A stretch of 64,000 nucleotides of DNA from a virus, in the IMG/VR virus record IMGVR_UViG_3300046318_000171, positions 27,239-91,238 of that record, one strand, 5' to 3'. Under the pieces are notes generated by a model. That model saw nothing but the letters and a program-made list of their open reading frames with translations. It was not told where the DNA came from and ran no database searches. Numbering within the stretch: position 1 is the first letter of the stretch; every line of letters begins with the position of its first letter. A program made the position numbers and the translations under genes. Positions 2 to 62,275 of the stretch are shown one piece after another.

Positions 2-1144
2 AAGAGCCTGCTGTATGTGATGCCGTGCAACTCACGGTCGGTCAAGTCAATCGGCTTGTCAATGTACCGCAGAGTTGCTGCTGGCATTGTTGGTATGAGC
101 AATCGCCCAACATCAGCAGACCTCTGGCGTCACTTCCGCAACGAAGTCATTCGTCTAGAAGCACGTGCCAATGGCACAGACGAAGCGGTGTTGCAGCAGC
201 TCAAGTACAACAACTACGAGCAGTTCTGGTCCAAGATGAAGCAGGACAAGAAAGAGCGAGCCAAGGTTGTTGACCAAGCGGCTGTCGAAGCAATGTGGGC
301 AACCATCCCAATTGCTGAAGCAGGCACCGAGTCAAGTCGTGGCTGGGGTATCGAAGTCGAGACAGTTCGTGCTAACCAGACATCACGACCACGTGGTTGG
401 GAAGATGTGTACGACGGCTCACTGCCAGAGTCCGGTGGTGGTTGCAACTGTGGTTGCGACGACTGCTGCAATGGTGACCACTGCGACTACGAAGATGACG
501 ACTGCTTCGCCAACAGTGGTGGTGGTGAGTCAAGAGAGTTCGTCTCACCTATCCTGCGGTACTTCAACAGCAATGGTCTGCGTCAGTTGTGCGGTGACCT
601 TGGTGATGTCGAGCAATCTACAGCCCCAGGTATCCACGTTCACGTTGGTGCCGAAGACCTGACAGTCACAGACGTAGCCCGTGTGCTGTTTGCCTATGGC
701 GTAGTTGCTCCGTTCATCCAGCCGCTGTATCACCGCAAGGTGTTCGGTTACTGCCAAGAGATGCCCGGCAACAATGTCCAGTGGTGGCTGACTGCTGCTA
801 AGCGTCGTCTACAAGAGACAGGCAGAGTGCCACGACCTGCTGACATCTGCCACGAGCAGCCCGTCAACCGCTACCAAGATGTGAACACTCACGCCTTGGC
901 TGCACACCAGACCCTAGAGTTCCGTGCTATGGGTCCGTTCTACAACTACGAGCACCTAGTCCGTTGGGCTTGGTTCTGCCGAGAGATGTTGAATGTATCC
1001 CGACTCAACCTAGACCAGCGTGTCTGGACTAGTTGCGAGTCACTCACTGATGTCATCAATGTACTACGCAAGTATGGCTCAGAGTTCCCAACCGACAAGT
1101 CGCTGGCAGACACGCCAGCCGACACAAACACATACGAAGAATAG
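2..1144 (+). CDS. COOH-NH2 ligase (amidoligase family), 5' end outside window
   Basis: Probable ATP-dependent amidoligase with a glutamine-synthetase/GCS-like fold, joining a carboxylate to an amine. The frame is open to the left window edge; a GTG at 17 is the first start codon inside, but the true start is probably upstream. Counting from that GTG, family motifs appear in order: GIEVE (111-115), DGSL (133-136), EFVSP (174-178), GIHVHV (205-210) and LEFRAMG (300-306), which carry the Glu, His and Arg residues expected to bind metal and nucleotide. Between DGSL and EFVSP sits a Cys- and Asp-rich insertion (143-163) with eight cysteines, suggesting a metal-binding loop. The next gene, 9 bases downstream, is a class II glutamine amidotransferase, a pairing known for amidoligases in phages and biosynthetic clusters. 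The substrate is unknown; peptide or cell-wall modification is inference. Confidence 0.8.
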   Translation, partial: KSLLYVMPCNSRSVKSIGLSMYRRVAAGIVGMSNRPTSADLWRHFRNEVIRLEARANGTDEAVLQQLKYNNYEQFWSKMKQDKKERAKVVDQAAVEAMWATIPIAEAGTESSRGWGIEVETVRANQTSRPRGWEDVYDGSLPESGGGCNCGCDDCCNGDHCDYEDDDCFANSGGGESREFVSPILRYFNSNGLRQLCGDLGDVEQSTAPGIHVHVGAEDLTVTDVARVLFAYGVVAPFIQPLYHRKVFGYCQEMPGNNVQWWLTAAKRRLQETGRVPRPADICHEQPVNRYQDVNTHALAAHQTLEFRAMGPFYNYEHLVRWAWFCREMLNVSRLNLDQRVWTSCESLTDVINVLRKYGSEFPTDKSLADTPADTNTYEE

Positions 1145-1153
1145 GAGATACTT

Positions 1154-2251
1154 ATGTGTGGTATCGCAGGCTTTAGCCTAAGTAAGACCAGCAAGATAAA
1201 ACCTCGACAGTTGTCGAACGCTTTGCTGGGTGCAATCGAGGACCGTGGCGGTATGGCTTCGGGCTTCGCTTGGCAAGACAATGAGCATATGGGGTTCTAC
1301 AAAGCAGCCGTCACCGGCTCTACCCTGTCGCTCAAGACAATGCCAAAGGATGTGCGTAATGTTATCTTGCACACCCGCCTAGCCACTCACGGCTCAACCA
1401 ATGACAACCGCAATAATCACCCAGTGCTCTCGCCTAACGAGGACATTGCGTTGGTTCACAACGGAGTCATTTACAACCACAACCAAGTACGCAATCAGTT
1501 GGGTATGACACTGCCAGATGTAGATACAAGTGTTATCCCTGCAATCATTGAGCAGCGTGGGCTTGACTCTATCAACGAGTTGGATGGTGATGCCGCAATT
1601 GCGTGGTTCAACCGCAAGGAGCACAACACTATGCACCTTGCACGCTACAAGCACTCACCGCTAGTTATGGCTCAGGTAGAAGACGGGTCATTCATCTTCT
1701 GCTCAACCGAGCAGTTGCTATGGCGTGTGCTTGTCAGTATGGACCTAATGCCAACGTGGATGGAGACAGCCAGCGAGCTGGACTACTTCACCATCCGTGA
1801 TGGCGTAGTGATGAGCAAGTCGATGTTGCCTGAACCTAAGTACAACGACTACTCGTACGACTACTCGTACTTCCGCCACCAGACAGCCGGTGCCAAGCCA
1901 AAGACTATCGGGTCTTCGTTTGCGTACTACGACGAGTGGGACGACGACTACACCCCGTATTCGTTCAACGGTAAGAACACCGACCGTGATGACGAGTTCG
2001 ACAATGACGACGACTATGCCGAAGACGACTTCAACACTGACAATGTTGTGCCGCTCAATCGTGCAAAGTTCTACACCGTCATCTACGACACCATCATCAA
2101 AGACCACGAGTACATCTACTACTACGGCGACGAAGAGAAGACGTGGAAAGACGAGTTGTTCATCTGGGCTAACGAGAACTACATCAAGTTAGTTGACTAC
2201 GGAGTAATCGACAAGGGTGAGTTGCTCTCAACCACTGACGAGTTGTTCTAG
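1154..2251 (+). CDS. Class II glutamine amidotransferase (Ntn-hydrolase)
   Basis: The N-terminus MCGIAGF places the nucleophilic Cys at residue 2, as in GlmS, PurF and GltB glutaminase domains. Further GATase-II signatures follow: HTRLATHG, NNHPV and HNGVIYN. The enzyme should release ammonia from glutamine and, from its position, may supply the adjacent amidoligase. The glutaminase domain occupies roughly the first 210 residues. The remainder is a Tyr/Asp-rich region (about 230-300) and a short C-terminal part of unknown role; no sugar-isomerase, PRTase or asparagine-synthetase domain is attached. Ribosome-binding site AGGAGA lies just before the ATG. Family assignment is firm, pathway unknown. 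Confidence 0.9.
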   Translation: MCGIAGFSLSKTSKIKPRQLSNALLGAIEDRGGMASGFAWQDNEHMGFYKAAVTGSTLSLKTMPKDVRNVILHTRLATHGSTNDNRNNHPVLSPNEDIALVHNGVIYNHNQVRNQLGMTLPDVDTSVIPAIIEQRGLDSINELDGDAAIAWFNRKEHNTMHLARYKHSPLVMAQVEDGSFIFCSTEQLLWRVLVSMDLMPTWMETASELDYFTIRDGVVMSKSMLPEPKYNDYSYDYSYFRHQTAGAKPKTIGSSFAYYDEWDDDYTPYSFNGKNTDRDDEFDNDDDYAEDDFNTDNVVPLNRAKFYTVIYDTIIKDHEYIYYYGDEEKTWKDELFIWANENYIKLVDYGVIDKGELLSTTDELF

Positions 2252-2327: not shown

Positions 2328-2729
2328 ATGGAACAAACCACAGTAGCAGGCTTAGTAGCCACTACACCAAGACACCTAGTCACACAAGACGGGTTGCCAA
2401 TCACCTCGTTTCGTATGGCAGTACCAACACGCCGTTTCGACAGAACCACGAGCAAGTGGGTAGATGGCGAAACTAACTGGTACACAATCACAGCGTTCCG
2501 CCAACTAGCAATCAACCTTGTAGGCTCAATCAGCAAGGGTGAGCGTGTGCTAGTGCAGGGTAATTTGCGAGTGCGTGACTGGGACAACGGAGAGCGTGCC
2601 GGTACAAGCGTCGAAATTGAAGCGTTGTCAGTAGGACACGACCTGAACTGGGGCACAGCAGTGTTCACCCGCACCGTGCTAACGCAGGATGTAGACCCAG
2701 CCGCACAAGAACCACCATACGAGTACTAA
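2328..2729 (+). CDS. ssb: Single-stranded DNA-binding protein (OB fold)
   Basis: A 133-residue SSB. The central part has the family pattern: a variable N-terminal strand, SFRMAVPTRRFD, then WYTITAFRQLAINLVGSISKG and RVLVQGNLRVRDW, followed by a short acidic tail ending in PPYEY. It protects ssDNA during replication and recombination. The ATG at 2328 is preceded by AAGGAGA; an upstream in-frame ATG at 2217 lies inside the preceding gene and is rejected. The tail is shorter than in cellular SSBs and lacks the DDDIPF-type tip. A second, gp32-like ssDNA-binding candidate is encoded on the other strand at 30725-31375. Confidence 0.88.
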   Translation: MEQTTVAGLVATTPRHLVTQDGLPITSFRMAVPTRRFDRTTSKWVDGETNWYTITAFRQLAINLVGSISKGERVLVQGNLRVRDWDNGERAGTSVEIEALSVGHDLNWGTAVFTRTVLTQDVDPAAQEPPYEY

Positions 2730-7835: not shown

Positions 7836-8052
7836 TGAAAAAGAAATGCGCAAGATTCAAAAACTAGCCGAGGCGCAGGGCTGGACAGTTACCAAAACCA
7901 GTAAGAACCACACCAAGTGGCTATCCCCACTAGGCGGCATGGTAATCAGTTCCGCTACCCCATCTGACCGTAGGACCCTGACGCACCTTAAGCGTGACCT
8001 ACGTGTCAACGGCTTCATTGACATCACCCGACAGAACAAGAGGAGGAAATAA
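7828..8052 (+). CDS. HicA-like (YcfA/dsRBD-fold) protein
   Basis: A 74-residue protein with the HicA pattern: helix KIQKLAEAQGWTVTKT, then strand-turn KNHTKWLSP (His as in the HicA catalytic position), a second strand GGMVISSATPS and a closing helix TLTHLKRDLRVNGF. HicA proteins are RNA interferases normally paired with a HicB antitoxin; no HicB-like gene adjoins it, so it may be an RNA-binding protein that has lost or never had toxin function. It overlaps both neighbours by a few bases. Confidence 0.6.
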   Translation: MSDEKEMRKIQKLAEAQGWTVTKTSKNHTKWLSPLGGMVISSATPSDRRTLTHLKRDLRVNGFIDITRQNKRRK

Positions 8053-8342
8053 TGGATGAACTAATAGACGACTCAGTCGACTTTACGCAAGCAAAGTGTG
8101 CGACTAAATCTGATGCTTGGGAAATCTTCTTCCCAGAAGGCAAGGAAGTACCAGCCAAGATTCGCTACGCTAAGGCCCTATGTGGTCAGTGCCCGGTTGC
8201 TATTGCCTGTCTTACCAAGGCTATGGGCATGGGTGCCGAACTACACGGTATCTGGGCCGGAACTACTCAGATTGAACGCAACCGTATGCGCAAGGACTTG
8301 AACTTGCTTGAGCTTCACGTCAAGAGTTTGCCAACATCCTAA
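8052..8342 (+). CDS. WhiB-family Fe-S transcription factor
   Basis: Contains the WhiB signature: C16, then C44-x2-C47-x5-C53 for a [4Fe-4S] cluster, followed by the turn HGIWAG and a basic segment (IERNRMRKDL). WhiB proteins are restricted to Actinobacteria and their phages and act by binding the primary sigma factor and promoter DNA. At 96 residues it is full length. Last gene of the rightward operon, ending 10 bases before the bidirectional terminator. In mycobacteriophages such proteins alter host gene expression (for example TM4 WhiB); a similar role is inferred. Confidence 0.93.
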   Translation: MDELIDDSVDFTQAKCATKSDAWEIFFPEGKEVPAKIRYAKALCGQCPVAIACLTKAMGMGAELHGIWAGTTQIERNRMRKDLNLLELHVKSLPTS

Positions 8343-10585: not shown

Positions 10586-10620
10586 ATCAGATAGCCCGTA
10601 AACCTAGTTCTCTATCTGAT
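10586..10620 (-). repeat. Inverted repeat over the end of the upstream gene
   Basis: ATCAGATAG (10586-10594) and CTATCTGAT (10612-10620) form a perfect 9-bp stem around a 17-base loop that contains the stop codon of the 10604-12079 gene. No U-run follows on the minus strand, so termination is doubtful; it may stabilise the 3' end or reduce read-through into the reductase. Confidence 0.4.
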
Positions 10621-12079
10621 TACGGATAATCATGGTGGTTTTCTCTTCGCCTAACCCTGCCTGCTGGTCCTTAACGGCCTGCACACGGTCACCAAAAATC
10701 GCACTCAAAACACCCTGTCCAGCACTACGCTGCGCAGTAATCTGGATGAACTCTTTGTTCTCGTCCAGCTCTTTAATATTCTTCAACATCTTCTGATAAC
10801 GGTCAATCTCTTGCGACACGTTTGGGTCTGCGTATCCACCGTTCAATTCTTCTGCAAACCGCATAAACATTACTCTCTGGGCCTGCATCTCCAACATTGC
10901 GGTATTCAATGCACGCAACTGTTCAGGGGTCTTAACCTCTACTGGCAGACTAAACGCACAGGTGTTTTGCGGCTTAAATGCAGGGCAATTTGACGCTACA
11001 AAACAGGTGTCGCACTGGCGCAAACTGGTCACATTTGAACTAACAACAACGCTGTCTTTGAGGACATCAACACCGTTTTCGGTTTCCACAACCTGCTTGA
11101 CTTGGTACCCCAAAACAGGCATTGAAACGACCTCTTCTGGGTCTCTTTGGACCACTTCTGAGCGTTCAACTTTCCGCATCTCCGACCCACTGTTATTAGA
11201 CGACCCCCCACCCATTTCCATCAAACCCGTGTATAGGGTGTCGTCACTCTTATCAGATAGGAACGGGTTATTATTGGTTGTCATGTTGCCTTCTAACTGT
11301 AAATATGACCAAACGGCTACTTTAGTCGCTTCGGTTGTGTCGTCGTCTACGAACTTTTTGAAATCTAGCCCAGCTCGGTCCAACGTCGCCTTGTATCTCG
11401 GTCGGGCCTGGGCTTTCATTTTTTTTGGGTATCGAACCAGCTTCATTCCATCCCAAATGATTGTCTCACCATTTCTCATTGGTGACAACCACGACAGTGT
11501 GCTTGTGGTTGTAAACGGAATACTCCTCAGGTTATCCGGTTTGGCCACTGCAAGGCCGTGGAACCGTGTTTGATACTTTTGGACTAAACTACGTGTAATC
11601 CCCGCTAATGCCGTCACAGCGTCTACAGCGGCTCCTGGGAGGGCAATGTTCTGGTACTCCTCTGCCCACTGACTTATCACCGGCAAACCGTACGCTTCGT
11701 GCCACACCACCCACAACTTAGGGTCGTTCTCAAATGCGGCTCGTTGCTGCTTAATCCACGGCAATCCCATTACCTGGCTGTCAAACTCAACCCAGCCCTC
11801 AATACGGTCGTAATTTAGGGCGATAAACTCTTCATACTCGGCCGCATAATCCTCTAACTCGGCCCTTGACAGGTTGGCTTTATCCGCCTGAGTTGCCCCC
11901 GAGTCTACCCACACTTTCATCTCTGGCAGGAAATGCTCACCAATTAGATACGCCTTGTTCTTAGGCAACCCACGCTTCTTCAACCCCCAGTAATTCAACA
12001 TTACGTGTTGAACACCGCTCTTCTCCAATAGGGTGCGGTTTGACGGGATTTCTACGCCCCCAAAAATTACCCTACTCAA
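10604..12079 (-). CDS. Probable two-domain protein: TGT-like TIM barrel plus Cys-rich C-terminal region
   Basis: 491 residues. The first 240 residues recall the phage tRNA-guanine-transglycosylase-like (DpdA/TGT superfamily) TIM barrels: strand-ending KVWVDSGA (residues about 55-62), a long helix EDYAAEYEEFI, VEFDSQVMG, and STLSWLSPMRNGE, where relatives have a 'STSWL.G.R.G' motif. A Ser/Asn-rich linker (about 275-310) follows, then a region with CDTC, NCPAF and NTCAF cysteines and a helical C-terminus. No queuosine or 7-deazaguanine synthesis genes are nearby, so base modification is speculative. The upstream HAD-like gene overlaps its start by eight bases. Confidence 0.4.
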   Translation of the reverse strand: MSRVIFGGVEIPSNRTLLEKSGVQHVMLNYWGLKKRGLPKNKAYLIGEHFLPEMKVWVDSGATQADKANLSRAELEDYAAEYEEFIALNYDRIEGWVEFDSQVMGLPWIKQQRAAFENDPKLWVVWHEAYGLPVISQWAEEYQNIALPGAAVDAVTALAGITRSLVQKYQTRFHGLAVAKPDNLRSIPFTTTSTLSWLSPMRNGETIIWDGMKLVRYPKKMKAQARPRYKATLDRAGLDFKKFVDDDTTEATKVAVWSYLQLEGNMTTNNNPFLSDKSDDTLYTGLMEMGGGSSNNSGSEMRKVERSEVVQRDPEEVVSMPVLGYQVKQVVETENGVDVLKDSVVVSSNVTSLRQCDTCFVASNCPAFKPQNTCAFSLPVEVKTPEQLRALNTAMLEMQAQRVMFMRFAEELNGGYADPNVSQEIDRYQKMLKNIKELDENKEFIQITAQRSAGQGVLSAIFGDRVQAVKDQQAGLGEEKTTMIIRNQIEN

Positions 12080-23158: not shown

Positions 23159-23307
23159 TTAAAACTACTCCCTTTGTGTTTTGGCATGTTATCAGTCTTA
23201 CACTTAGGGCAAGTTAATAGAACTGCCCCAGTAATGGGACAAGTGCCCCCTACGACAGGCTTATGCCCACGTAGGAAGCACCATGCTCCTTTTAGCCAGT
23301 TACTCAC
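23155..23307 (-). CDS. Very small Cys-containing protein (50 aa)
   Basis: GTG at 23307, overlapping the upstream stop. WCFLRGHKPVVGGTCPITGA followed by TCPKC gives C10, C23 and C33-x2-C36, possibly one zinc site. Basic C-terminus. Function unknown. Confidence 0.6.
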   Translation of the reverse strand: MSNWLKGAWCFLRGHKPVVGGTCPITGAVLLTCPKCKTDNMPKHKGSSFN

Positions 23308-23677
23308 TAGGCCATTCACCGTCAAGAACCATCATAGCGATGATTGCGTAGTTAGCTAGGTCCAAGAATGAGTCCTTGAGACTTTCGTTCTCTGGTTTTG
23401 CACCTGAGTCTACTAGATTATTGATGCGGGCCATCTTGTCCCACATGCGCACACGCAACCCGTTGATAGGTCCGCCTGGGGCTAAGGCAATGTTCTTAGG
23501 TCCGTAATCCTTGTGCTTCTGTAGCAACACGGCCTTAGCGTGCTGAAACTTCTGCTGCACAGCCTCATTAAAAGCAGAATCGCTACCCTGTCTAATTAGC
23601 CCCAAAATCTCTTCGGGAAGGATGCTGATGTCCCCAATTAAACCCATCTCGCTGTCTCCAACTATGTGCTTTGCCAT
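23300..23677 (-). CDS. DUF1599-like nucleotide-modification-associated protein
   Basis: Start at 23677 (MAKHIVGD) after GAGGTATAAC; an earlier ATG at 23725 lies in the upstream gene. LLQKHKDYGPKNIALAPGG, then GLRVRMWDKMARINNLV and ESLKDSFLDLANYAIIAMMV match the DUF1599 pattern (all-helical, MazG-like metal-binding residues in E/D-rich helices). Members accompany phage nucleotide or base metabolism; a pyrophosphatase-like role is inferred. Its location beside recombination genes fits nucleotide-pool management. Confidence 0.75.
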   Translation of the reverse strand: MAKHIVGDSEMGLIGDISILPEEILGLIRQGSDSAFNEAVQQKFQHAKAVLLQKHKDYGPKNIALAPGGPINGLRVRMWDKMARINNLVDSGAKPENESLKDSFLDLANYAIIAMMVLDGEWPSE

Positions 23678-24414: not shown

Positions 24415-25280
24415 TAGTCCTCCTTGTAAGGGGCACACTGCTTGCAGGTGCCGCCGGGGTTGTTGTTGCAGTCTGGGGCTACTCCTGCCTCAACTGCGTC
24501 TACTACAAACTTAGCCTTATCGAAGATGTGACGAACCAGCTCAAAGTCACGCTTGACTGAGAACTCCTTGTATGACTGGTCAGCCTTCAACTCGTAAAGG
24601 AACACAATCTCGTTGATAGGTTCGTCGTTGTCGTCACGAACACCCATGCGGCCCATCAGCTCAAGGTACATCTGACCCTGAAGGATGTGGCTAGGGAATG
24701 GACGGCGTACGTTGCCCCACGCCTTCATGAAGTCGCCATCGGCGTCCATCATCAAGTTCGGTGCCTCTGCACGGATGGTACCTGGACCGATTGACTTAAT
24801 CTCAATCAGGGTGTCGTTACCCAATCCCTTGACCCAGCCGTCGGTGTGGCCCTTGATGCGAAGAGCGTCGTCGTGCAGGGTAACCTCACGATACTCAAAG
24901 ATGTCTTTGCTGCAGTTAGGGCATAGTACCGGTCCTGTGCCAAAGATAGAGAAGTCGCAGCCCTTGCAAGTAAAGCGACCGTATAGAACGCCCATCTCCT
25001 GGAAGTAACGCTGCCACTTGGCGTGAATGGCGTGGCCTGTGTCGAAAATGTTCTGTAGGCGTAGTGGTGGCTTTTCAGCAATCTTGGTGCGGCCGCTTAG
25101 TAGGAAGTACGACCCACGCTTACAGAAGTCCTTCTTAATGATTTCTGATGGGTGCAAAACCAAAGTGCTACGGTCTCCTACTGGACGTGCCAACAGGTGG
25201 CGCTCAATGTCGCCTAGAAGACGAGCAGGCTTTGCCTTAGCGTCTAAGAACTTTCTTAGTTCAGTCTTTGCTACGGTCAT
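24414..25280 (-). CDS. Cas4/RecB-like Fe-S exonuclease with inserted zinc ribbon
   Basis: PD-(D/E)XK nuclease: HTDGW (D147), LIEIKSIG (E160, K162) and the motif QGQMYLELM of RecB-family nucleases. Four cysteines, C53 near the N-terminus and C271, C279, C282 at the C-terminus, match the split [4Fe-4S] site of Cas4, AddB and Dna2. A further pair C105-x2-C108 / C120-x2-C123 forms an extra zinc ribbon between the N-terminal part and the active site. It probably processes DNA ends in replication or recombination. No CRISPR array is present. Confidence 0.87.
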   Translation of the reverse strand: MTVAKTELRKFLDAKAKPARLLGDIERHLLARPVGDRSTLVLHPSEIIKKDFCKRGSYFLLSGRTKIAEKPPLRLQNIFDTGHAIHAKWQRYFQEMGVLYGRFTCKGCDFSIFGTGPVLCPNCSKDIFEYREVTLHDDALRIKGHTDGWVKGLGNDTLIEIKSIGPGTIRAEAPNLMMDADGDFMKAWGNVRRPFPSHILQGQMYLELMGRMGVRDDNDEPINEIVFLYELKADQSYKEFSVKRDFELVRHIFDKAKFVVDAVEAGVAPDCNNNPGGTCKQCAPYKED

Positions 25281-25651
25281 TTGTTCTCCTTTTTATCTAG
25301 CTGAAAGATGTATTCCTTCAGCGTCATAGTATCTTTATAGTTCTTCCGCCACTTTCGCACAAGGGCGTTACGTTCTCTATGGCTTAGTCCGCCCCAGATG
25401 CCGTTACCAATGTCCTGGCTTACGGCGGTCCATAGGCACTCAGCTCTTACCGGACAAACACTACTTTTGTTTGGTCCAAAGCAATAGGTCTTTGCTTCAT
25501 CAGCAATCTTCTTGTAGAGCTCTTTGTCTCTTGGTGGGAAAAAGATGTTTACATCTACTAGAAAGTTTCCCTCGTCATCAACACTCCAGCAAGCGGCATC
25601 TGTGTACCACTCAAGGTCGCCGTCACGAGGAAGCAGGTTCTGAAGACTCAT
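25277..25651 (-). CDS. WhiB-family protein with unusual cysteine spacing
   Basis: WhiB features: C21 after a Trp/Asp-rich start, CPVRAECLW and GIWGGLSHRERNALVRKWRK with the G-I-W-G-G turn and basic tail. The cysteines are C21, C57, C66, C72: the usual C-x2-C is expanded to C-x8-C (CFGPNKSSVC), while C66-x5-C72 is normal. The C21-C57 gap is also longer than usual. Four ligands remain, so an Fe-S cluster is plausible. 124 residues, ending KKENK over the next gene's ribosome-binding site. Confidence 0.88.
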   Translation of the reverse strand: MSLQNLLPRDGDLEWYTDAACWSVDDEGNFLVDVNIFFPPRDKELYKKIADEAKTYCFGPNKSSVCPVRAECLWTAVSQDIGNGIWGGLSHRERNALVRKWRKNYKDTMTLKEYIFQLDKKENK

Positions 25652-59307: not shown

Positions 59308-60348
59308 TTATGCCCTGTAGAATTCCAAATTACGGGCTAACCGTTTGTCAGTTGGGTTTAGTTCTAGGGCTTTTTCACCCCAAGCAATTGCTTCTTTTTT
59401 GTTTCCCAGGTAGTAGTGGGCTAGTGCCCCAAGGTCGTAAGGTAAATCTCCCCAAGCAAACTCTTCGCAAAGATAGTCGAGTGGTTTATCCACGATGTCG
59501 ATTGCCTGTAGGGCGTAGCGCAAGCAGTTAGCCCAATCCTGTTTACCATACAAGTATTGGGCCATCTCAACCAAGGCTTCACGACGGCCAGGGGCTTCAT
59601 CGGCTGCCTGTTCCAGATAAAGATGAGCAAGGTCTGGCAAACACTTAGCAAGATACCTGCAGGATGCGGCCCGTTCTGGGCCCCATGTAGCTTTAGGGTT
59701 TTGTAAATGACGCTTGAACATGTCAGCGGCTTTATCGTACATTCGGTTGAAGAAGTACTCCCGAGCCAGGTAGTACTGGTTACGGTCGTCAGTAGGGTCC
59801 TCAGCGACAGCAAGTTCTAAAAGAGGGAAGTACTGTCCACGACTCTTAGTAGGGTCTGGATGATGGTGGATTTCTAGCCCAATCCACTCCTGAACTTCTT
59901 GGATACGGTCAGCAACGATTACTTCGTGGACGGGGTGCTTCCAGCGGTATCCGTGTCTTCTGTGGATTTTATCTCCGCCGTATTGAAGACCAGGCTCATC
60001 ACCGTTCCAAGACCAGGTGTACTGATAGCGAGGACGAGTAGTTTCTGGCTTAATTTGCTCAAGATGTTCACGCCAGCCTTCAACCAGGACTTCATCCATG
60101 TCCAAAGCAACACAAATATCGATATCATCAGGGAGAAGCCCCAAAGAAATATTCCTAGCATCGTCAAAGCGCCAAGGGTTAATACTACCAGTGGCAACAC
60201 TAACACCCAGTGCAGCCGCTCTAGCGACTGTGCCGTCACTTGAGCCAGTGTCAAGAATGAATCGATAATCCGCCTCTTTCGCACTTTCGGCCCATCGTTC
60301 AACAAACTGTTCTTCATTTTTAGCAATTGTGTACACCGCAACTTTCAT
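59308..60348 (-). CDS. Family 2 glycosyltransferase with TPR-like C-terminus
   Basis: N-terminus MKVAVYTIAKNEEQFVERW, DTGSSDGT and the DxD-like ALDMDE at about residue 83 are GT2 features (SunS/glycosyltransferase family). WRFDDARNISL lies between. Residues about 190-345 form TPR-like helical repeats (ALAHYYLGNKKEAIAWGEKA). 346 residues. It could glycosylate phage DNA, virion or host molecules; in this place next to fibre genes a virion target is a guess. Confidence 0.88.
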   Translation of the reverse strand: MKVAVYTIAKNEEQFVERWAESAKEADYRFILDTGSSDGTVARAAALGVSVATGSINPWRFDDARNISLGLLPDDIDICVALDMDEVLVEGWREHLEQIKPETTRPRYQYTWSWNGDEPGLQYGGDKIHRRHGYRWKHPVHEVIVADRIQEVQEWIGLEIHHHPDPTKSRGQYFPLLELAVAEDPTDDRNQYYLAREYFFNRMYDKAADMFKRHLQNPKATWGPERAASCRYLAKCLPDLAHLYLEQAADEAPGRREALVEMAQYLYGKQDWANCLRYALQAIDIVDKPLDYLCEEFAWGDLPYDLGALAHYYLGNKKEAIAWGEKALELNPTDKRLARNLEFYRA

Positions 60349-61082
60349 TATTCTCCAAATGTTAACTTCATACGTTCTTTGGCTGCTACCAGCTGGTCTT
60401 CAGAGATGTCATTAGAAATTCCAACTCTACCCAGCTCAGCCGCCGTTACCGCAACCACAGCAGAGCCACCAAAAGGGTCTAGAACCACGTCTCCTTTTTT
60501 GGAAAACATCTCTATTAGCCTTTTGGGTACTTCTTTGTTCATAGCGTCAATGACCGGGAACCTAGACGATAAAGCCAAGTCTACTGGGTCGTTCATGTTG
60601 TTAAACGGTAAATTCCAAACCGGATTGTTGTACTTTCTAACTACAAACGGATTGTGATAAAGGTCCGTAGGAAAGGCGAAGTGGTGCCAAGTAGTCAGGG
60701 CGCTGTCAGCAATCTTTTCAACTAAGGTGTAGTCCATAGTCGGGTCTTCGCCATAACTATTCTGGATAATCTTCTCTACGTGCCTAAATTTTGACTTGTT
60801 TACAATTTCTAAGACTAGCCTGATGTCTATGTGGTTGTTCGGGCCGTTTGCAATGAAGAAGCTTCCGCTAGGCTTAAGTACTCGCTGAATCTCAAGTACA
60901 GACTGCAGCAGTAGTTTCAACATCTTTTTATCGCTGCCAGAGTTTATCTGCTCGTCAGCATCCCCACCGTATCGTTTGACATCCACCCCAAAGTATGGCG
61001 GGTGAGTGATTACCAAATCAACAGAGTTGTCAGGAAGAGCCAGCTTTCGGGCGTCTCCATGCATCAAGTGAACCTTATCCAT
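60348..61082 (-). CDS. DNA methyltransferase (N4-cytosine/N6-adenine type)
   Basis: Starts at 61082, after GGAGGAAAATA; an ATG at 61106 is in the preceding gene. Motif IV THPPYF (26-31), motif I-like DPFGGSAVVAVTAAELGRVG near the C-terminus, in the order typical of beta-class amino-methyltransferases. GSFFIANGPNNHIDIRLVLE is motif V-like. No restriction enzyme adjoins, so it probably protects phage DNA from host restriction or is regulatory. Confidence 0.88.
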   Translation of the reverse strand: MDKVHLMHGDARKLALPDNSVDLVITHPPYFGVDVKRYGGDADEQINSGSDKKMLKLLLQSVLEIQRVLKPSGSFFIANGPNNHIDIRLVLEIVNKSKFRHVEKIIQNSYGEDPTMDYTLVEKIADSALTTWHHFAFPTDLYHNPFVVRKYNNPVWNLPFNNMNDPVDLALSSRFPVIDAMNKEVPKRLIEMFSKKGDVVLDPFGGSAVVAVTAAELGRVGISNDISEDQLVAAKERMKLTFGE

Positions 61083-61323
61083 TATTTTCCTCCTTGAATC
61101 CAACATCGCCTAGTTCTTCTGCACCCCATTTGTGCACTGGGCACTCGGAGTTAGGCAGTTTAGTTTTTGCAGGCATAATGCACCCGCACTTTAGGCACTG
61201 CTGGGTCAGGGAAACAAAGAACTCACAATCTTTGCAAATCGCCATTCTTCTGCTTGCTATTTCTTCTGTAACTCTACCGATGTTCTTGTTAAACAAATCC
61301 CAAGGTCGTGAAGGCCTATTCAT
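61075..61323 (-). CDS. Zinc-ribbon protein, paralogue of 57978-58142 (82 aa)
   Basis: C30-x2-C33-x9-C43-x2-C46-x-C48-x12-C61, then KW: identical spacing to the smaller 57978-58142 protein. N-terminus MNRPSRPWDLFNKNIGRVTE. Overlaps the methyltransferase start by eight bases and the glycosyltransferase end by eight. Function unknown. Confidence 0.72.
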   Translation of the reverse strand: MNRPSRPWDLFNKNIGRVTEEIASRRMAICKDCEFFVSLTQQCLKCGCIMPAKTKLPNSECPVHKWGAEELGDVGFKEENNG

Positions 61324-62275
61324 CTACTCTATACTCCTTAGGAATGTACCCACCAGCGGCTGCTCCATGTTTCAAGCTTATCTTTGCGTAACGCTCGTAG
61401 TTCTTTATTTTCTCTCGATTTGCGGGATTGTTGACGTATGCTTTATACCCAGCAATCTGTCGAACATCAAACTCATTCCTCAGAGACGGCTTTAAGTACT
61501 CGGTTACAAACGTGCGCTTACCTCCGTACTTGTTTCGGTCATCACCGTTTAGGTGGGTGATTGGGAACCACTTTAGGTTAGGAAACACCAAAGAAAACCC
61601 CATGTCGTACAACTCTACGGAGTAAGCCACTTCTTCATCGTAAAACATTCTGTCTGGGCTAGACCCGGTGTTCCTACCAAACTGTCTGTCACCAAAAGCA
61701 CAAGCGGCGTTAAACTTCACCGCTGGGTAGAACTTGTCTGGGTTGTCTTCTCCTAGTGGGTAGTCGCCCCACTTAGGAATGGCCATTACCCACAGACTGC
61801 CAGGCTCGTAAAAAGGGTAGGCGGTACGCTCCATGTTTTGCATAGGCTTACGCTCTGGGTGGTACTTGTAAGTCCCAATGTAGTTAGTCATAACCACTTT
61901 GTCGCTGTTAGCTGCCACCTTAGCCTCTTCGTAAAGAGTTATCATGAACTCATCCCAATCCTGAGAGAAGTGGGTGTGGCAGTCTACCTGAAAGAAGTAG
62001 TCCTCATCTTCGTACAGAACTTCGGCTCTGATGCGTCCTTTACCCACACCTAATTCTTCAAATGTGTTCTTTTTAATCTTGGTAAAAGAGGCTCTTACTC
62101 TAGGGTCGTTTAACTTAAGAAGTTTCTTGTACTCGTTGCTTTTTACTGCTGCAATTCCTACGCCCACACGAATTCTTTCTGGGTACTTTGCAGCACTCAG
62201 AGCGTTCAACACCGACGGCAGTATCTCCGTGTCATCCATGGCTGCCATCGAAACAAAGATAGTTGCGTGGCTCAT
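61316..62275 (-). CDS. GlcNAc-transferase-like glycosyltransferase
   Basis: IFVSMAAMDDTEILPSVLNA, LSAAKYPERIRVGVG, then FQVDCHTHFSQDWDEFMI (metal-binding D-x-H) match the PF11397-type N-acetylglucosaminyltransferase family best known from Skp1 glycosylation in Dictyostelium and also found in viruses. Later NAACAFGDRQFGRNTG and ITHLNGDDRNKYGG. 319 residues. Likely acts with the neighbouring GT2 in glycosylating virion or DNA. Confidence 0.8.
   Translation of the reverse strand: MSHATIFVSMAAMDDTEILPSVLNALSAAKYPERIRVGVGIAAVKSNEYKKLLKLNDPRVRASFTKIKKNTFEELGVGKGRIRAEVLYEDEDYFFQVDCHTHFSQDWDEFMITLYEEAKVAANSDKVVMTNYIGTYKYHPERKPMQNMERTAYPFYEPGSLWVMAIPKWGDYPLGEDNPDKFYPAVKFNAACAFGDRQFGRNTGSSPDRMFYDEEVAYSVELYDMGFSLVFPNLKWFPITHLNGDDRNKYGGKRTFVTEYLKPSLRNEFDVRQIAGYKAYVNNPANREKIKNYERYAKISLKHGAAAGGYIPKEYRVDE

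Follow-up and report, generated by a model that had tools for sequence, protein, structure and literature searches.

The record under study (G000) is a phage contig of 91,238 bp; the window referred to throughout is the stretch of 64,000 nucleotides at G000:27239-91238. At its start lie two adjoining plus-strand genes, which the first-pass annotation had taken, from their motifs, for an amidoligase and a class II glutamine amidotransferase (GAT-II). All of those motifs – GIEVE, EFVSP, HVHV and EFR in the one, Cys2, HTRLATHG and HNGVIYN in the other – were located in the window (Table 1). The window edge truncates the amidoligase, leaving the first third of the protein outside, and gene calling on the whole record gives a protein of 587 aa (G000:26619-28382, plus strand). 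The gap between its stop codon (1142-1144) and the start of the GAT gene is 9 nt.

Table 1. Features of the amidoligase/GAT-II locus (window positions) and of the haloarchaeal virus loci compared with it (contig positions).
Feature	Position	Strand	Remarks
Amidoligase (Amidoligase_2, PF12224), C-terminal 380 of 587 aa	2-1144	+	Open at window edge; start 619 nt upstream (G000:26619)
N-terminal extension, remaining part (residues about 207-308 of 587)	2-307	+	Absent from short phage amidoligases
GIEVE	347-361	+	First conserved acidic motif of the glutamine-synthetase-like fold
Cys/His-rich insert (C355, C357, C359, C362, H367, C375)	443-505	+	Metal-binding-like; poorly modelled loop
EFVSP motif	536-550	+	
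HVHV motif	635-646	+	
EFR motif	917-925	+	
GGAG, ribosome-binding-like site of GAT gene	1144-1147	+	Overlaps amidoligase stop codon; direct reading
GAT-II, 365 aa, complete	1154-2251	+	GATase_6 domain, residues 1-about 225
Cys2, N-terminal nucleophile after Met removal	1157-1159	+	Protein begins MCG
HTRLATHG motif	1370-1393	+	
HNGVIYN motif	1457-1477	+	
Tail motif Y[YF]RHQT[AS]GAK (general form YRxxT[AS]G)	1868-1897	+	Conserved, past GAT domain; modelled short helix
Small C-terminal alpha/beta unit (residues 306-360)	2069-2233	+	Confidently modelled
Single-strand DNA-binding protein	2328-2729	+	Next gene downstream; context, outside the pair
WhiB-like gene	8052-8342	+	Closes the plus-strand gene run
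DpdA-like gene (phrog_887, queuine tRNA-ribosyltransferase family, E 1.3e-57)	10604-12079	-	Candidate DNA base transglycosylase
Haloarchaeal virus pair, GAT-II and phrog_23742 protein	L218:30238-31891	-	
Haloarchaeal virus pair, GAT-II and phrog_23742 protein	L222:2501-4148	+	
Haloarchaeal virus pair, GAT-II and phrog_23742 protein	L221:2027-4020	+	

The pair had also been described as heading an early operon, but the gene caller finds nine plus-strand genes upstream, from G000:23851 on. The two genes thus sit within a run of small plus-strand genes, and their apparent position at its head arises because the window edge cuts that run. A promoter scan, with one site found against 4.1 expected by chance, gave no support for a start there. 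WhiB proteins are markers of actinobacterial hosts, so the WhiB-like gene at the end of the run indicates such a host here; a second WhiB-like gene (window 25277-25651, minus strand) was recognised solely by visual inspection of its cysteines. Elsewhere the record encodes a contractile tail sheath, found in a PHROG search, and a 1039-aa collagen-like protein rich in GPTGPTGPQG repeats (G000:1010-4129, minus strand). Also on the minus strand of the window are a DUF1599 protein (Nucleotide modification associated domain 1; 23300-23647, 31.6 bits against a cut-off of 25) and an N6_N4 DNA methyltransferase (PF01555, 75 bits; 60348-61106) near a GlcNAc glycosyltransferase (61316-62275). PADLOC returned no match to known defence proteins.

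Profile searches agreed with the families first assigned, placing each protein above a curated cut-off and far beyond chance: Amidoligase_2 at 38-40 bits (cut-off 22) and GATase_6 (PF13522) at 74.7 bits (cut-off 27). The residues on which catalysis would depend are also kept in relatives. All 22 aligned amidoligase sequences share E325, E327, E386, H419, H421, N502, E513 and R515, the residues of GxExE, E, HxH, N and ExR. The 30 aligned GAT proteins likewise all keep R75, T78, N103, G104 and D124, and the MCG start is near-invariant (at least 90%); one row, L012, is cut by the choice of start and its frame reads ICG.

Modelling of the amidoligase (pLDDT 79.5) gave a region at the N terminus, a long helix spanning 246-296, and a glutamine-synthetase (GS)-like domain with a disordered Cys-rich loop. 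This domain spans residues about 305-572, and about 310 residues precede it. In a fold search covering residues 305-572, the segment 319-570 resembled YbdK (Z 10.6 and 10.1), plant glutamate-cysteine ligase (9.3), Dop (9.2) and glutamine synthetases (about 9). The phage amidoligase is therefore predicted to share the GS-like fold of these enzymes, although a PDB sequence search found no significant similarity to any of them, and Foldseek gave no match at E <=0.001 (best E 4.7e-3). Residues 1 to about 300 matched no Pfam or PHROG family, DUF7711 scoring below its cut-off.

The GAT model (pLDDT 84) is closest to the glutaminase domain of GlmS, with a Foldseek E-value of 1.3e-14; GlmS also heads the PDB sequence matches, and NCBIfam hits are to glmS (9e-22) and asparagine synthase (AsnB, 7e-15). 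In fold and catalytic motifs the protein agrees with the glutaminase domains of GlmS and AsnB, but no synthase domain is fused to it. It is not a full GlmS enzyme: only positions 1-198 of 607 in the NCBIfam glmS model were matched, reaching 77 bits where the cut-off is 418, and the sugar isomerase domains are absent. The EgtC model TIGR03442 gave 12 bits (0.094) against a cut-off of 218.65, and GATase_4 (0.034) was likewise far below its own. Judged by these matches the GAT-II is of GlmS/AsnB type and lacks an EgtC-type identity, which favours a supply of ammonia over removal of a gamma-glutamyl group.

A first scan of viral contigs gave three relatives (44-50% identity), in all of which the GAT is the immediate next gene on the same strand. 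A scan with the single GAT sequence retrieved no relatives and an alignment query was required. From a larger search of viral loci, fetched by GAT-II similarity alone, the best 80 of 231 were taken, and in 75 of these 80 an iterated amidoligase HMM detected the ligase gene beside the GAT-II, bearing out the co-occurrence expected by the first-pass annotation. The remaining five have their GAT 116-1068 nt from a contig end. When these best 80 of 231 loci are clustered at 90% identity, every one of the 46 clusters includes at least one locus with an amidoligase. In 54 loci the amidoligase is encoded upstream on the GAT strand, in 21 it is on the other strand, and a tree of 68 GAT domains implies at least two such changes of arrangement with the linkage kept. 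Distance matrices of the two proteins are correlated (r 0.80, n=68), although vertical descent alone could explain this. Conversely, a GAT-II is present in 36 of 41 viral loci selected by their amidoligase, many of the contigs overlapping the earlier set. No fused GAT-amidoligase protein was seen among the loci scanned.

Cellular GAT-II loci, by comparison, had an amidoligase in 1 of 80 (best 80 of 84), but they comprise another mix of subfamilies (22-33% identity, mostly long synthase-like GATs), so that 75/80 versus 1/80 contrasts subfamilies and is not a matched comparison. The sole positive, on a contig from a cellular MAG (L137:579-5716), has two adjacent amidoligase-like genes, a GAT-II and a match to gamma-glutamyl cyclotransferase (GGCT) just upstream, along with an ATP-grasp-like protein recognised by eye; it is perhaps a phage. 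In another cellular locus, from a Gaiellaceae genome (L138:7734-9694), MurT-like and GatD-like genes, again judged by eye, lie near a standalone GAT-II gene.

Within the GAT tree the window's protein falls in a fully supported clade of 36 rows, in which both partners are enlarged. Median amidoligase length is 500 aa in 35 loci on the window's side, some of whose amidoligase frames are short or split, and 320 aa in 40 loci on the other side; the corresponding GAT medians are 360 and 268 aa. By crude patterns, 30 of the 35 and none of the 40 are rich in Cys between GxExE and EF, and 32 of the 35 and none of the 40 have the GAT tail motif. In the opposite-strand group, loci L021, L030, L031, L033, L036-L039 and L046 have an amidoligase frame that reaches only about 190-320 aa, and these genes may be split or broken.

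The GAT-II is not the only partner with which viral amidoligases are found. GGCT (PF06094) had no match in the window's record, its control matching in 9 of 14 genomes; it was also absent from 13 related records (G001-G013) and present in 4 of the 22 records of the same search. A search for COOH-NH2 ligase (PF14395) gave no match in the record, but its control matched nowhere. A second set of 22 whole records combined 10 annotated phages with 12 contigs from the 41 amidoligase-selected loci, chosen because they were new or lacked a GAT. Eight have GAT-II only, as do two haloviruses below the family cut-off, and five have GGCT only, plus one below the cut-off at a contig end. Both occur in three (LUZ24, Laroye and Ottawa), and neither in a further three, namely a 9.2-kb fragment, Porphyromonas phage W08 and Faecalibacterium phage W09. 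GAT-II and GGCT thus largely alternate as partners of the amidoligase, a substitution that is new as far as we searched. Both enzymes cleave gamma-glutamyl bonds, and the alternation can be read in two ways: each partner may free a nucleophile for the ligase, or each may undo the ligase's product.

Our preferred explanation, held with a probability of about 0.48, is that the pair encodes a two-protein glutamine-dependent amidating enzyme. Cys2 of the GAT-II would attack the gamma-amide of glutamine and free ammonia, while the amidoligase with ATP would convert a carboxylate to an acyl phosphate, from which ammonia would displace phosphate to leave an amide. Known members of the GS fold act on glutamate gamma-carboxylates, and by analogy the carboxylate here is probably a glutamate-like gamma-carboxylate. 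Ammonia would be transferred between proteins in physical contact, perhaps via the GAT tail and the extra parts of the amidoligase. The computed support consists of the two family assignments, the GS-like fold, the conserved linkage and a full set of catalytic motifs. The use of glutamine-derived ammonia, first suggested by the annotation, is plausible because the GAT-II is of GlmS/AsnB rather than EgtC type; what sits less easily with it is that several phages have GGCT in the place of GAT-II, which a pure supplier of ammonia would not by itself predict, and that the Porphyromonas and Faecalibacterium phages have an amidoligase with neither partner.

The second way of reading the alternation is a gamma-glutamyl cycle, in which the amidoligase would link an amine to a glutamyl gamma-carboxylate and the GAT-II, as GGCT elsewhere, would later cleave the bond. 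The logic of ligation followed by cleavage has precedents in EgtA/EgtC and PuuA/PuuD. Such a cycle would account for the interchange of the two partners, and gamma-glutamyl ligases are indeed what the amidoligase matches best in structure. We nevertheless consider it rather unlikely, given that the GAT-II is nearest to the GlmS/AsnB glutaminase domains, with the EgtC and GATase_4 scores far below their cut-offs, and that LUZ24 and the two Arthrobacter phages hold GAT-II and GGCT together.

Whichever mechanism applies, a cell-wall carboxylate was among the targets first put forward, and the pair could alter wall peptides, blocking superinfection for example. Actinobacterial hosts amidate their own walls with glutamine-dependent enzymes, MurT/GatD and AsnB. 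In passages of the published work, the module of RIO-1-like podoviruses is termed a peptidoglycan modification cassette (PMC5498523), and such a role is cited for phiEco32 (PMC10580990, PMC11318856). Set against this are viruses whose hosts would offer no such target. An amidoligase with GGCT occurs in a phage assigned by its record to the Anaeroplasmataceae, which are wall-less bacteria, and the haloarchaeal viruses ChaoS9 and PhiCh1 have a GAT-II just downstream of a protein that is amidoligase-like by motif order only. Haloarchaea lack peptidoglycan.

The haloarchaeal case deserves a closer look. In PhiCh1, ChaoS9 and one IMG/VR contig a GAT (MCW..., HTRYATRG, HNG) follows a protein of 355-428 aa that has GMEVEQ, E, HVH, N and TIELR in amidoligase order. 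A class II glutamine amidotransferase is named in both viruses in passages of a paper on archaeal tailed viruses (PMC8651126); the GAT relationship has weak profile support (probability 79.5), with a score below the Pfam cut-off. The amidoligase-like protein of ChaoS9, ChaoS9_220, has no Pfam family, belongs to a PHROG of unknown function and was missed by the amidoligase HMM; its profile-profile probabilities against the amidoligase (3.4, 31.9 and 0.8) do not support a relation. An ordered-motif pattern, written post hoc once the halovirus sequence had been seen, matched 45 of 1146 proteins of at least 200 aa, comprising 26 labelled amidoligases, 16 from minus-strand loci (amidoligase frames unlabelled by the script and recognised from alignments and length data) and three halovirus copies. 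Of 106 labelled amidoligases the same pattern picked up only 26; it did not detect halovirus copy L221, and it matched 34 of 200,000 shuffled versions of ChaoS9_220. The halovirus protein is likely, though unproven, to be a relative of the amidoligases, and archaeal viruses may carry the module; as far as we searched, this apparent pairing of GAT-II with an amidoligase-like protein in haloarchaeal viruses, seen in motifs, is new. It weakens the cell-wall target but does not refute it, and we regard that target as somewhat unlikely.

A broader possibility would make the amidoligase the core of a virus-wide modification system, its partner only freeing a nucleophile from a gamma-glutamyl donor. 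GAT-II would release ammonia from glutamine for a plain amide, and GGCT would draw on a gamma-glutamyl compound to release an amine or amino acid for a substituted one. Since the pair, or a close analogue, occurs in haloarchaeal viruses, the target would be not peptidoglycan but something common to bacterial and archaeal cells or to the viruses themselves, be it protein, nucleic acid or small molecule. We hold this synthesis to be quite unlikely.

A nucleotide carboxylate, also among the targets first proposed, could be reached if a base bearing a carboxyl group is amidated by the pair, or if the pair acts together with a DpdA-like transglycosylase of the same genome. The record does encode a DpdA-like protein. 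Moreover, phage ligases of another fold, some with a GAT-II-like domain, amidate 5-carboxymethylcytosine, according to passages of PMC12783734; the enzyme there is asparagine-synthetase-like, with a fold unlike that of Amidoligase_2. Yet phrog_887 is present in only 4 of 33 pair-carrying records. Neither QueC nor CmoA, the latter a partner in the 5-carboxymethylcytosine pathway, was found in the record, although the controls matched. We judge DNA hypermodification improbable, with little in its support. A general link in which the pair travels with DpdA, as a 7-deazaguanine reading would have it, is not supported by the 4 of 33 records (which may be fragments) and the lack of QueC. The DpdA-like frame of one related record (G001:34655-36136, minus strand) has a single internal TGA stop.

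Least probable of all, in our estimation, is an auxiliary role in nitrogen metabolism, the genes helping the host to use ammonia. This was proposed for a Planctomycetes phage on the basis, in the passages available, of phage addition experiments rather than gene tests (PMC10945688). GAT-II releases ammonia rather than assimilating it, and the conserved pairing with a specific ligase indicates a dedicated product.

The founding analysis of these modules is reportedly that of Iyer et al. 2009. Passages of later papers place the amidoligase/GAT-II module in UFV-P2 and other LUZ24-like phages (PMC3890496), among them a clinical phage (PMC11945000), and in phage tf (PMC3517423), Arthrobacter cluster AL phages (PMC5513430) and a Planctomycetes phage (PMC10945688), while Clostridium prophages combine an amidoligase with GGCT (PMC11318856). 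The module thus recurs in very different tailed viruses. Passages of the open-access literature, most subscription journals being outside its scope, contained no recognised assay of these enzymes, nor any experiment on the substrate of the module. The minimal two-gene form, the interchange of GAT-II and GGCT and the possible archaeal carriers together pose a testable question, namely whether the amide is plain or substituted and on what it is formed, and the two-gene form should be the easiest for in vitro study.

Compared with the amidoligase/GAT-II/GGCT/ATP-grasp module of LUZ24- and RIO-1-like phages, the window likewise has Amidoligase_2 directly before GATase_6, on one strand and near replication genes. 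It differs in having two genes only, in a record without GGCT, in the long region before the GS-like domain and the Cys/His insert of its amidoligase, and in the conserved tail motif of its GAT; in LUZ24 the two proteins are about 391 and 510 aa. The OM43 phages MEP401 and MEP402 also have PF12224 and PF13522 together, a likeness drawn from passages of published text (PMC10580990). Arthrobacter cluster AL and related phages (Laroye gp98-gp99, Ottawa gp65-gp66) share the order of amidoligase then GAT-II and an actinobacterial host, as the window's WhiB-like gene suggests for its own, but they have GGCT and smaller proteins (amidoligase 324-337 aa, GAT 295-307 aa). The module is therefore already known from LUZ24-like, RIO-1-like, Arthrobacter cluster AL and OM43 phages, and the window represents its two-gene form without GGCT, in which both proteins are enlarged.
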